Positions 31,309 through 44,958 of a stretch of 64,000 nt of DNA are shown in pieces. A model generated the notes under the pieces. It did no database searches and was not told where the DNA came from. It saw only the letters and a list, made by a program, of their open reading frames with translations. This DNA is from Kondoa malvinella (lineage: Eukaryota; Basidiomycota; Agaricostilbomycetes; Agaricostilbales; Kondoaceae): assembly GCA_039545315.1 (NCBI GenBank), contig BCIM01000011.1:62001-126000 (forward strand), in the 5' to 3' direction. A program made the translations under genes and the position numbers. How positions within the stretch are numbered: the stretch's first letter is position 1; each line of letters starts with the position of its first letter.

Positions 31309-34135
31309 TCATTCTTCGCCGAATCCAGAATCCGTGTCGTCCATCGATTTGCCCATTGAACGGAAACTGCGCAGACAAGCTTCTTTGGCGTCTGAAAGAG
31401 TGTGCTCGTCTTTCTTGCTTTGCTGTTGTTGCCAGACTTGATCGTTCAGCAAAAGTCGGGTAACGGAGACCATGTTTGAAAGCTGTAGCATAGCTTCTTC
31501 TGGCATGTCCAAGCGCTTGCTGTCCCTATTCGCAATCAACCACCTCAAGCACACAGTCGCAACGAGGTCGACGCCGTTGAGCGGTTCTTGTTCCAGACGG
31601 GCCGAATCATGAGCAGTCGGATTGAGCAGTCGAACGAACGCGTGAGCTGATGCGATGTGCGTTGCTGGGCCGGCTTTTGAAAGTAGTGTCTCGAGAATCA
31701 TGCAGACGCTTCTTGCTCCCGTATAGTCATGGGTGCCAATGCAGAGGAAACCACGAGTGATGAGCGCTAGAGTATGTGAGGGAGATACAGGTACTGTCGA
31801 GTCAACGATGCTTTTGATTTGGTGGAGGATTTGGGTCGGTTCGACAGCGAATGTCAAGGGTGCTTCTCTTTCAGCTGCTGAACCTGGTGACCGAGGCGCC
31901 AATGCCTGGACGGTCGCTTTGAAGAGGTCGATCCAGATCGCTTTAAGAGAGGCGTGCACCTTGTCTTCTGCTACACGCAAAAGAGGAAGAGAGTCGCTAG
32001 CTGAACAGACGCGGTACGAAGGGCGGAAGGCGACAGAGCAGGCAGTATCATAATCAGAGGCTAGGGCTGCTTGTGCCCAACCTTCGATCATGCCATCCGT
32101 CGATTTCTTGGGCGCAGCTGCAGCCGTCTTCCAGAACCGGCGTCGACGAGATAAAGGTGAAGCTTGAGCGGCAAAGACAGAGACGAAAGCCAGAGCCATA
32201 GTAGCATCGACGTGCGGCCGAGACATGACGACAGGCTTGATCTCGAAGAGATCGTCGGACCAGTACTTGGAACGGACGAGGTTGTGTAATCGCATAATTG
32301 TATAGAGTCTTCCGGCTCGGTAGGAGATATGATTGCCTAAAACAATGTCAGCTCTAAGTCGGAAGAGAAGCGACTGTAGCTTACCGAAAGCGCTCTCGAC
32401 TTCAATCAACCTGACCAACGATACCACTCTCTCCCTCAAATCCTTGCCTTTGAGCGTCTTGAATACCATTGGCCTCAATCCAGCACCGATCAAATAACTG
32501 CTCAGACCTTCTACCACCAACCCAATCAAAGTGCCCAATAAGCCGAATCTCGGAGCATCGCTCAGGACCAATAGAGCGTTGCGCAGTCGACGAGCATGTG
32601 TGACTTGAGTTTCGCGGTCAGGTGACTGGGCGACTGCTTGTTCCGATTCGTGTAAAGTCATGAAGGCCATTTGTCGTTTGCCATCAATAATAGGGCTGTT
32701 GCCTGGTGCTGATTGACTTGCGAATCGATTGCTAAGGTAGTGGAAGAGATTGTAGAAGATGACGCAGGCTAGAGCAAAGATGCCAGTGTATACGAGAACG
32801 TGAAGGAGGGAGGGTGTATTGGATGTCAGTTGCGGTTTCGGTATAGACGCTTTCTTGACCAAATTGACAGAGCGAGCCCACGCTTGAGACGTCCCCTCTT
32901 TTACAGCTGATGCAGATTCCGACGAAGAAGCAGCGTAGCCAGTTCCCGCTAAGCCAAGGCCAGCAAAGAGACCGTATGCAGAACGGCGAGAAGAACCAGA
33001 ACCGTCTGATCCAGGCGAGTCGGCAGAGACGGCGCGTTGAGCTGCGGCGAGTGCCAACTCCTGTTCGTATGCTGCTTGGGCATGAGGTAGACGTTGTAAG
33101 ATCCGCTCTGCCACTTCCAACTTTTGCTGTATAACAGACCGCTCTTTCTTGAGATGCCTCAGGTATTCGATCCCTTTGTCTATGATTATGCCTTTGCTGA
33201 GCTTGTTAGGTACGACAACGCCATCTCGCTTCGAGCCAATCGGGTGTATATTCTGAGCTGAGGCTGACAAGATGAATGCAGACGATCGTCGAGGTGGTCC
33301 ACTAGCGCCGTCGCTCTCTTTTAGGTGATCTAGAGCTGGTATGAGGTGTTGTAGTTCAGTCAGGGAAGAATTGATCTTGGTTCTATATCGCTTTTCAACA
33401 GCGTCTGATCGAATGACATCAGCTCAGGACTAGCACCGAACGATAATAGTACATACTATGTCCTGTCGGACCCTCTGGTACGTCCTCTGCACCTTCTTCC
33501 GGTACATCTTCCGCTAGTTTCCGCTTCTTTTGACTAGCTTGCGAGACCTTTCTTGCTGTTGGTGCTGGACCGACCTGCTCGGTGACCGGCGCAAGAGATC
33601 TACTCTTGTCCGAGGAGTGCTTTGTAATGGTCTTTGATAGGTCTGGCGCGGTGGAAGCTGGCGGATAAGCCGTCGAACTAAAAGCAGCGGGAAGATCCAT
33701 AAAAGGCGAGAGATTGGGCGATACGCTCTGATACGAAGTTGAAGGGATCTGGTTCATCTGCACTTGTAATGACTGCTGTGCAGATATTCGCGGTGATGGC
33801 TGAGCCTGACTGCCGAAAGTGAAATCGTTCGAGTTCATGCCAAAGGAAGAATCGATGCCAAAGCTGCTTCCCGCATTCGAGTAAGGCATATTATAGCCAA
33901 ATCCAGGATCCAAAAACTGATTTCCGAACAGCGCATCATTGCCATTGCCATTCGGGGCAGGGGTATACGTAGGGTTGTTCAAGAAAGCTCGCGGGATGCC
34001 CAAGTCGTCAAACGAGGCTGTCAAGTAGCTGTTTTCGCTTGAGAGGCTCGAGTCAGGGCTGACGGGTACAGGCGAAAAGAAGTTCGAGTAGAATGTCTGC
34101 TCATCTTGCTGCGAGAATGGCATTAATCCGTCCAT
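31309..34135 (-). CDS. SRE1: SREBP-family bHLH membrane-bound transcription factor
   Basis: Predicted ER-membrane transcription factor, released by proteolysis when sterol or oxygen is low. Exons 34135-33457, 33404-32385 and 32336-31309 give 908 residues. The N-terminus is Ser/Pro/Gln-rich (activation-like) with a KKRK patch. The bHLH begins NAVEKRYRTKINSSL, carrying the Tyr diagnostic of SREBPs, has an unusually long loop, and ends LSKGIIIDKGIEYLRHLK followed by a leucine-zipper stretch. Two membrane segments follow: LHVLVYTGIFALACVIFYNLF and FGLLGTLIGLVVEGLSSYLIG. The long C-terminal region would bind SCAP-like partners. The second intron (32384-32337) is 48 nt, in frame and stop-free, so its retention would insert 16 residues. 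Confidence 0.93.
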
Positions 34136-42436: not shown

Positions 42437-44958
42437 ATGAAGATCCTATTCCTCACCACAGCACACAACTCACTCTCCCAAAGACTATCGCTTCTGCTCA
42501 CTTCTGCGCCTCATAACCACCATGTAACCGTCGAGCTCGCCCTCAGTCCAGAATGCATGATTGAAGCCGTCCAAATGGCGAAACCGGATTTGATTATCTG
42601 TCCTTTCCTTACCAGACGCGTGCCGCGTCTGGTTTATGACAATCACATCACTCTAATCGTCCATCGTATGTCTCTTCTGCTCGTATATGGCTCAAACTGA
42701 TAGCAATATAGCTGGACCACCTGGTGATTCCGGCCCATCAAGTTTGGACTGGTTCTTACTCGGCGAGCAATCTTCCTCCCCATCATCCGAACTTCCATCC
42801 GTACGCTACTGGGGCGTAACAGTCCTTCAAGCAGAAGAAGAACTCGACGCAGGTCCAGTTTACGCCTTTTCTCTATTCAAAGTCCCTCTTGGTATCTCTA
42901 AATCCGATTTGTACCGCCAACAAGTCACTTTTGCTGCTCAACATGCTGTTTTGGCTGCTATTGAATTGATCAAGAATGGGCAGAAACCAAGTGAGGAGAA
43001 TAGGATTTATTCAGTTCCTGATGGAAGGAAGTTTGAGGGCAAGACGAGGGAAAGACCATTGCTTAAAGCTTCTGATAGAGTGAGTCTTCCTTTCATCTGG
43101 ATTTACTGAATCGCGCTCATGTTATGTCAGGACTTTGACCCAACCAAAGAATCAGCCGACATCATTTCGCGCAAACTTCTCTCTGCCAATTCCCAGCCTG
43201 GTGTCTTGTCACGCTGTCTCGCTCCATACCTCGACAACCAACCTTCCCTCTTCCTCTACGGCGGTGAACTCAGCACCGTCTTACCACCCGGCAATCACGC
43301 ACCAGGAACAATTATCGCTCAGCGTGATGCTGCTATTCTCCTCATGTGTGCGGATGGAAGAGCAGTATGGATCACTCATGTTCGCGAACCGAAGAGCAAG
43401 AGTCAGACTATGTTGAATCCGAAATTACCTGCTGTTATGGGATTAAAGTTTAAAGTCCAGCCAATGGTGTGGGAGTATACCTTCGATCTGGGTGAAGGGA
43501 GGAGAGAAGTGAGGGTCGAGTGGGAAAAGACGTCTGCTGCTGCTTTGTTGAGGAGTGAAGGGCCTAGAGGCGATATCAGGCCAGATGGACTGCCTACAGG
43601 TAAGCTTTCTAGTATCTATCTCGTCGACTGAAGCTGATAAGCCATGACAGATGACTATAGCTCAGAAGAGAAGTGCTCCATTGCCTACATCCACTTTGGT
43701 TGCATCAACGGAGCAATGTCAACTGCCTCATCTCGACAACTGCTCAAAGCGCTCCATTACGCTATAGAACCATCTTCAGCTCCTTCTGGTCATCCACTCC
43801 GCGCGCTGGTCATGATGGGCGGCGAGCAATTCTTCTCTAATGGCATTCATCTTTCTGTCATTGAAGGCAGTCAAGATCCAGCTGCGGAATCGTGGGAGCA
43901 GATCAATGCTATTGATGATGTGTGCGAGTTTCTGTTGTCGATGAACCTCCCTGCGTAAGTCTTTTCTGCCATGTCCTCTCGAGGGAAGAGCTAATTTATT
44001 TTGCAGACGAAAGATTGTGACGGTAGCAGCAGTCCGAGCAAATGCGGCAGCTGGTGGATTCGCTCTAGCAACATGCTGCGATATCGTCATTGCCTCGGAA
44101 CAGGCTACTCTCAATCCTCATTATCGCGGTGTTGGTCTCTTTGGCAGCGAATTCCATACCTACACTTGGCGCAAACGCCTCGAGAAATGCGGCGACGCAG
44201 ACAACAAGTTCAACGAGATTACAAAAGGTCTACTACCGATGAGCAGTATCCAAGCTAAGGCGCTCGGTTTGGTCGACGAAGTCATTCCGTACTCCTCGTC
44301 AGAAGCCAACCAGCACGTCTCCAAAATGGTCAAGGCGGTCCTCTCTCGCCGAGTCGAATCTCGCGTCTTCGGGTCCATTTCTCCTTGGTGTCTACCTCTC
44401 AGCAACAACCTCGTAACTGGTGCTCCTCTGCTGCCTGCTCTACTCGCAAACAAGCTCAGAACTTTCGGAACGCTCTCGATTCCGCTGTCCGAAGTCCGCC
44501 AAGCAGAACTCAATCAAATGTTATTGGACTTTTACCATCCCTACCGATCTCAGCGCTATCATTCACGTAGAACAGCTTTTGCTCGCAAGATCGCTCCCAA
44601 AGCCAGCCCAAACCGATTTGCCCTTCACCGCCGGTTCTCTGATTGGACCGGCATCAACAAGGACGTAGAAGAGACCGAGTCATTTGATTCGCTAGCTTCC
44701 CTGGAAGAGACACGCGCGCGAACTGCCACACCACCTCCCGGCGAACTGGACGCGCCTTCGCTCACTTGTTCGCCTAGCTCGACAGTCGCTACTTCTTTCT
44801 CATCTTATCCTGTCGAGTTTGGCGCACCAAAGTACCTCGAGATCGATACAACGCGCCGAAACAGCTCGATAGCTGCTTGGGCTTGTCTAGAAGAGAAACC
44901 GGCCATGCCTTTGTTTCCTTGTTTATATGAAGTCTTAGAATGTGGCTTAGCCCGCTAG
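42437..44958 (+). CDS. hypX: HypX-like protein: formyltransferase domain fused to enoyl-CoA hydratase domain
   Basis: In bacteria HypX/HoxX takes the formyl group of N10-formyl-THF to CoA and decarbonylates formyl-CoA, producing CO for the NiFe-hydrogenase active site. Exons 42437-42665, 42712-43080, 43132-43599, 43651-43954 and 44007-44958 give 773 residues. The N-terminal half has MKILFLTTAHNSLSQRL, AKPDLIICPFLTRRVP, VHPGPPGDSGPSSLDW (split by the first intron) and WGVTVLQAEEELDAGPVYA. The crotonase half has MMGGEQFFSNGIHLSVIE, ESWEQINAIDDVCEF, RANAAAGGFALATCCDIVIA and LNPHYRGVGLFGSEFHTY. These match HypX, not ord­inary enoyl-CoA hydratases. Bacterial HypX is about 570 residues; this one has a central insertion and a Ser/Thr-rich C-terminal extension. 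No hydrogenase gene is in the window. The physiological role in a fungus is unknown. Confidence 0.9.

Follow-up and report, generated by a model that had tools for sequence, protein, structure and literature searches.

The closest described systems are the HypX proteins of Aquifex aeolicus (structure 6J0P) and Cupriavidus necator. In the catalysis proposed for Aquifex HypX, His74, Asp80 and Asp109 act in formyl transfer and Tyr416 and Glu426 in decarbonylation, while CoA is contacted by R9, Q15, R131, S194, Q195, N306 and R542 (PMC6802093). Another relevant protein is CoxC of Afipia carboxidovorans, a regulator of CO oxidation whose MHYT domain senses CO and needs copper, with O2 acting as an antagonist; the CoxC paper (PMC11347149) does not mention HypX. 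CoxC represents a candidate type of CO reader, the MHYT type, and many hypX genes of bacteria have an MHYT gene next to them. No paper dealing with HypX and MHYT together was found in the open-licence literature searched.

The window analyzed here (64,000 nucleotides, the whole stretch of DNA under study) lies on contig 11 of the Kondoa malvinella genome (19.09 Mb, 20 contigs) and contains a gene whose product shares with the two HypX proteins the order and arrangement of the halves, the catalytic residues and most of the CoA contacts. It differs from bacterial HypX in a linker longer than that of Aquifex, in a tail of ~100 residues with acidic and FxCYY-like motifs, and in the possession of introns. 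In contrast to the hydrogenase bacteria carrying HypX/HoxX, its host is a fungus without detected hydrogenase or HypD.

The hypX gene of K. malvinella and its product

Splicing of five exons between positions 42437 and 44958 of the forward strand yielded an open frame encoding a 773-residue protein. Exon 1 (42437..42665, with the ATG at 42437) begins the formyl-THF-binding formyltransferase half and reaches the catalytic His76; exon 2 (42712..43079) encodes Asp82 and Asp122 (Aquifex D80 and D109), as well as Arg145 (R131); and exon 3 (43131..43599) contains the end of this half, the CoA 3'-phosphate residues Ser220-Gln221 and the beginning of the inter-domain linker. The crotonase half begins in exon 4 (43651..43954), with Asn375 and the peptides FFSNGIHLSVIE and ESWEQINAIDD, and continues in exon 5 (44007..44958, ending with the stop codon), which encodes Tyr496 and Glu505 (Aquifex Y416 and E426), Lys651 and then the tail. 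The four introns are located at 42666..42711 (46 bases, phase 1), 43080..43130 (51 bases, phase 0), 43600..43650 (51 bases, phase 1) and 43955..44006 (52 bases, phase 2), and all are of the GT...AG type, with lengths of 46-52 bases. The protein length, the four introns and the peptides quoted in the first-pass annotation were all present in this spliced model.

When a rust HypX (P0043) was used as a genome query, the same exons were recovered (C11:104431-106811), and no second copy of hypX was found with this query at E<=1e-8 among the best candidates scored. The four introns, a coding sequence GC content close to that of the window (51% compared to 50%) and the position of the protein inside a fungal clade (see below) bear out the earlier view that the gene is resident; bacterial contamination was ruled out by the introns and the phylogenetic placement. 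The fungal hypX is a resident and intact gene. Ten frames in its vicinity were scanned with Pfam, and four gave matches (HEAT repeats; helix-loop-helix; prenyltransferase repeats together with an ASCH domain; DHH). The reverse strand at 31312-33423 of the window, ~9 kb from hypX, encodes a large protein in which a helix-loop-helix domain was matched (PF00010). An Rfam scan of the window gave no match at the curated threshold.

Among solved structures, the top match of the window protein was Aquifex HypX, covering both halves (E 5.9e-90), and plain enoyl-CoA hydratases came next (E 6.6e-6). In Pfam the crotonase half was clear, and two formyltransferase models matched below their cut-offs; both halves are present in the one chain. 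An AlphaFold model of a Colletotrichum relative (P0060), built with 52 sequences, had a pLDDT of 90.3 and a pTM of 0.89. The model of this relative (not of the window protein) matched HypX with a TM score of 0.90 by target length (E 8.7e-54); second among the families came the hydrolase domain of formyl-THF dehydrogenase, with an E-value about forty orders weaker (E 5.5e-13). Neither an ordinary FMT/enoyl-CoA hydratase fusion, which is ruled out by the Aquifex HypX match and by the fold of the relative, nor a loss of the catalytic residues was found. The window protein is almost certainly a true HypX, as had been proposed from the sequence, in view of the best solved match, the fold of the relative and the catalytic residues kept.

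Conservation of these residues was followed in an alignment of 170 listed homologues, drawn from the matches of the protein search and of the basidiomycete profile described below (the named ones all fungi, many unnamed), and 80 bacterial HypX proteins. The window protein has all five catalytic residues (H76, D82, D122, Y496 and E505), as do 170/170 of the listed homologues. In the bacterial proteins, His74, Asp80, Asp109 and Glu426 are each found in 80/80, and Tyr416 in 76/80. Comparison with the HypX structure, a check that had been suggested earlier, also showed that 5/7 of the CoA-phosphate contacts are kept in the window protein, with R9 replaced by Ala and R542 by Lys. The same changes are common in bacteria (Ala at R9 in 49/80, Lys at R542 in 66/80). 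R131, S194 and Q195 are kept in 169/170 homologues (one gap each) and N306 in 170/170; across bacterial HypX, Ser194 and Gln195 vary (Ser in 35/80, Gln in 11/80). Judging from these residues, the fungal HypX is probably catalytically active and would convert formyl-THF to CO.

The fungal family extends beyond the end of bacterial HypX, in a stretch framed by two motifs. The acidic DEEExxxFD motif was found in 142/170 homologues. At the C terminus, 147/170 carry a C[Y/F/L]Y motif that usually reads FxCYY (131/170 in the strict form), and several of the homologues lacking it show CHY. Neither motif occurs in any of the 80 bacterial HypX proteins. The window protein carries DVEETESFD, which misses the search pattern used, and ends with the motif FPCLY. 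The Ser/Thr-rich tail had been described as a departure from bacterial HypX, which is correct, but it is a common trait of the family framed by conserved motifs. In the P0060 model, the first motif is followed by a confidently predicted helix, the pLDDT is <50 at residues 695-713, and values of ~65 are reached around the end motif; this raised confidence is a hint of docking, no more. As a guess, the tail and the two short motifs in it may regulate or anchor HypX.

Distribution and phylogeny of fungal HypX

A protein search scored 7999 candidates, 5857 of them at E<=1e-3, and the named entries among the best 120 listed were all fungi. The occurrence of HypX in a fungus, noted in the first-pass annotation, is not confined to one fungus; the family spans Ascomycota and Basidiomycota (the listed homologues from Dactylellina and Rhizoctonia belong to the former and the latter, respectively). 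Among the matches listed for a basidiomycete HypX profile, rusts, smuts, Tilletia, Ceraceosorus, Tilletiaria, Rhizoctonia and Ceratobasidium rank above the named ascomycetes, and no named Tremellomycete is present among the 120 matches listed for this profile. Names such as "Hydrogenase maturation factor HoxX" and "formyl transferase domain-containing" are already attached to some fungal database entries. These entries have the same family and domain make-up as the window protein, with ~37-44% identity to it among the matches listed, and appear to have inherited their names from bacterial proteins. The open-licence papers searched yielded no functional study of fungal HypX/HoxX; a Magnaporthe paper (PMC5491491) cites the 1994 hoxX paper in its references. 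One Rhizoctonia entry (P0200) joins HypX to a transposase domain (PF02992), perhaps through a gene-model join, and a close relative (P0174) is a EukProt entry that bears the name of a transcriptome and names no organism.

Fungal rows formed one clade in three trees, with an SH-aLRT of 98 in the tree with 17 fungal rows and support of 100/100 in those with 11 and with 15. The 17-fungal-row tree left out 15 of the 80 bacterial proteins, mostly near-copies, and held L079 and L082 in the wrong frame (the right frames were used in the 11-fungal-row tree and in the alignment); the other two trees were smaller picks. Within the clade, ascomycetes separate from basidiomycetes, and the window protein falls among the latter (85/97, 11-fungal-row tree), a pattern that old vertical descent would produce. 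The join between fungi and bacteria is poorly supported in the 11-fungal-row tree (67/95, to actinobacteria) and not resolved in the 17-fungal-row tree, with a long fungal branch. A clade of fungi and Nocardia-type rows without Streptomyces was rejected (p-AU 4.8e-5) in the 15-fungal-row tree, which also held two wrong-strand rows (L096 and L097). As to the earlier suggestion that the enzyme was transferred and repurposed, a transfer of hypX from a bacterium is possible, but after the database search no bacterial donor is nameable from the three trees.

Bacterial hypX loci with hyp or MHYT genes

A scan of species genomes gave 475 bacterial relatives, and the best 80 loci were used. Genome-wide tests covered 49 genomes with 50/80 of the loci, the omitted ones being mainly near-relatives. 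A PF00374 (NiFe hydrogenase) match was found in 41 of these genomes and was missing from eight. The statement of the first-pass annotation that HypX belongs with NiFe hydrogenase in bacteria applies to most of the genomes tested, but the link is not universal.

The first MHYT genes beside hypX were encountered in three of the eight PF00374-free genomes (loci L029, L040 and L056). Four proteins of these loci seeded an MHYT HMM, and hyp genes were searched for by phmmer with five Hyp proteins of L013. Only hyp genes were found at 49 of the 80 loci, only MHYT genes at 12, both at none and neither at 19; without the three seed loci, MHYT genes are present at 9/77. The Aquifex loci were counted among those with neither, although Aquifex HypX has been studied as a hydrogenase-maturation protein, and this class is not evidence of another role. 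Pfam confirmed MHYT at L014, L018, L029 (two genes), L040, L056, L064 and L078, genome-wide PF03707 matches coincide with MHYT at L015, L016 and L036, and the assignment at L033 and L039 rests on the custom HMM. In L014, the gene order on the same strand is hypX, a response-regulator-like gene (below the cut-off), an MHYT-PAS-histidine kinase gene, a receiver gene and a receiver-kinase gene, and the scanned neighbours of bacterial hypX were mostly sensors and regulators.

PF03707 matches were present in 19/49 genomes, and 10 of the 31 MHYT genes counted lie inside the 50 hypX loci. These loci comprise 0.4% of the bases, and MHYT is thus found there at ~80 times the even expectation, a value inflated by related genomes; the naive probability of such clustering (4e-17) treats the genes as independent and should not be taken as a measure of significance. 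In six genomes (G010, G012, G014, G029, G032 and G042), the hypX-linked MHYT gene is the only one listed.

Three family surveys were also made, which partly reuse genomes of the main set. In the Nocardia family, hypX was found in 11/151 genomes, with MHYT within 1.5 kb at 7/11 loci; in the Methylomicrobium family, in 52/151 genomes, with MHYT within 1.5 kb at 10 of the 30 loci cut (10/11 when complete loci at >=63% identity are considered); and in the Teredinibacter family, in 29/144 genomes, with MHYT within 1.5 kb of 19/29 genes. No hyp genes were detected in these 1.5-kb flanks, which are too short to exclude more distant ones, and some Nocardia-family genomes with MHYT-linked hypX have a hydrogenase elsewhere (strong PF00374 matches in G131 and G193). 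According to the trees, MHYT-linked hypX occurs in at least two, probably three, lineages, and the loci are not independent.

Several other features were observed at bacterial loci. A second HypX class, in the family of G010, contains a frame with a C-terminal hemerythrin-like domain, that is, an oxygen-binding-type domain fused to a CO-making-type enzyme. The pattern was seen in 7 of the 14 loci L116-L129 (L116, L117, L119, L122, L124, L125 and L127), and in L117 it matched Pfam PF01814 (26.7 bits, cut-off 25.3). In Photobacterium (L009:2511-4022, forward strand) hypX is directly followed by a gene for a chemotaxis receptor whose membrane segments are rich in histidine; in Marinobacterium (L037:12434-13939, forward strand) such a gene comes after hypX with one gene in between. 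A PF00374 match is missing in both cases. In Methylococcaceae (L004:383-1393) and Methylocystis (L065:8933-9988), a DJ-1/PfpI-AraC regulator identified by Pfam is encoded a short distance upstream of hypX, and frames that appear similar by eye precede hypX in L014 and L112. In Aliikangiella, a V4R match below the cut-off (L040:9054-9767, reverse strand) is located between the MHYT gene and hypX.

Carbon monoxide as a possible signal in fungi

Profile searches of the K. malvinella genome gave no match to PF00374 or to PF01924 (HypD), for which 5/14 and 4/14 control genomes, respectively, were positive. The check for NiFe-hydrogenase or other hyp genes proposed in the first-pass annotation thus revealed no large subunit and no HypD. 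Hydrogenase maturation in this fungus was rejected on the strength of these absent matches, and since neither gene was found, any CO formed would not be destined for a hydrogenase. PF00551 identified three further genes, namely L001 and L002, which we take to be GART-like and FMT-like, and L003, presumably a PurU-like deformylase gene (all named by reading); the counts from these genome searches are lower bounds.

MHYT genes are present in the same genome as hypX, at C13:176577-177634 and C3:220332-220475, on contigs other than that of hypX and so not beside it. Frames downstream of the C13 gene matched HATPase_c (27.9 bits, cut-off 26.4) and HisKA (24.5 bits, below the cut-off of 26.9), and this gene looks like one for an MHYT histidine kinase. 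Fungal MHYT proteins are on record from Taphrina (a kinase) and Aspergillus (PMC4007546, PMC3576715). Co-occurrence with HypX is partial: 16/27 named species listed for the C3-type MHYT are also among the listed HypX matches. Among the matches listed, Cryptococcus, Kwoniella, Cutaneotrichosporon and related yeasts have MHYT without HypX, and Rhizoctonia, Ceratobasidium and Melampsora have HypX without MHYT.

From its residues and the fold of its relative, the fungal HypX is likely to form CO in two steps: the N-terminal half would transfer the formyl group from 10-formyl-tetrahydrofolate to bound CoA, as in bacteria, and the crotonase half would convert formyl-CoA into CO and CoA. Provided that the enzyme is active, folate one-carbon units would be a source of CO in many fungi; the open-licence papers searched contained no description of this route in fungi. 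We propose that this CO could act as a low-output signal or ligand that is read by MHYT membrane proteins, because in bacteria MHYT genes are repeatedly found next to those hypX genes that lie away from hyp genes, and because the fungus keeps MHYT genes. A CO maker beside a CO sensor would be the simplest reading of the bacterial pairs, and such a maker-and-sensor module might account for the presence of HypX where a hydrogenase is absent. That CO from the fungal enzyme serves signalling, with MHYT proteins as probable readers, is a tentative suggestion that we hold with some doubt. For the explanation as a whole, a catalytically complete HypX whose CO acts as a signal or ligand read by MHYT, the chances seem to us evenly balanced. 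The earlier proposal that fungi make CO or formyl-CoA for an undescribed purpose agrees with the catalytic residues kept and the lack of a detected hydrogenase; the purpose may be signalling.

Alternatively, the enzyme could be involved in folate housekeeping, draining surplus 10-formyl-THF and restoring tetrahydrofolate, with CO as waste. The retention of the folate-site catalytic residues fits this role, but the genome already has the presumed PurU-like deformylase gene (L003) besides those taken to be GART- and FMT-like, and the bacterial neighbours scanned are mostly of the sensor and regulator type; we consider it unlikely. It is also rather improbable that formyl-CoA is the product, or that a reverse reaction rescues formyl-CoA into folate, e.g., from oxalate or from alpha-oxidation, which is a source of this compound. 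Formyl-CoA is an intermediate of the bacterial enzyme and other sources of it exist, but it remains bound in that enzyme (PMC12134894), and the two residues tied to decarbonylation, Tyr416 and Glu426, are invariant in the 170 listed homologues.

The known role of HypX in bacteria would suggest that CO is a ligand for the metal centre of some fungal enzyme, yet no candidate enzyme was seen and HypD is unmatched in the genome, which makes this quite improbable. A scaffold or regulator acting via its tail after loss of catalysis would account for the conserved tail motifs absent from the bacterial proteins, but is very improbable given the five catalytic residues in every listed homologue. Maturation of a NiFe hydrogenase in K. 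malvinella, the role of the HypX family, or an origin of the gene in bacterial contamination, is largely refuted by the missing PF00374 and PF01924 matches, the four introns and the placement inside the fungal clade, and its probability is negligible.

A signalling role for HypX-derived CO has to be weighed against several of the results: hypX and MHYT are unlinked in K. malvinella and co-occur only partially in fungi, the 19/80 bacterial loci have neither partner, and MHYT was absent from 20/30 and 10/29 loci in two of the surveys. In addition, the MHYT domain is affected by O2 (PMC11347149). A broader view, which we regard as doubtful, is that over part of its range HypX is fundamentally an enzyme of CO signalling, making CO from one-carbon units independently of heme oxygenase in bacteria and Dikarya, to be read by MHYT proteins, and that hydrogenase maturation would be one use among several. 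In Ganoderma, an action of CO derived from heme oxygenase has been reported (PMC9659044), and fungal CO biology thus has a precedent, but from a source other than HypX. The K. malvinella genome contains a heme-oxygenase-like stretch with a weak match (28 bits, cut-off 23), which also counts against the signalling proposal as another possible source of CO.
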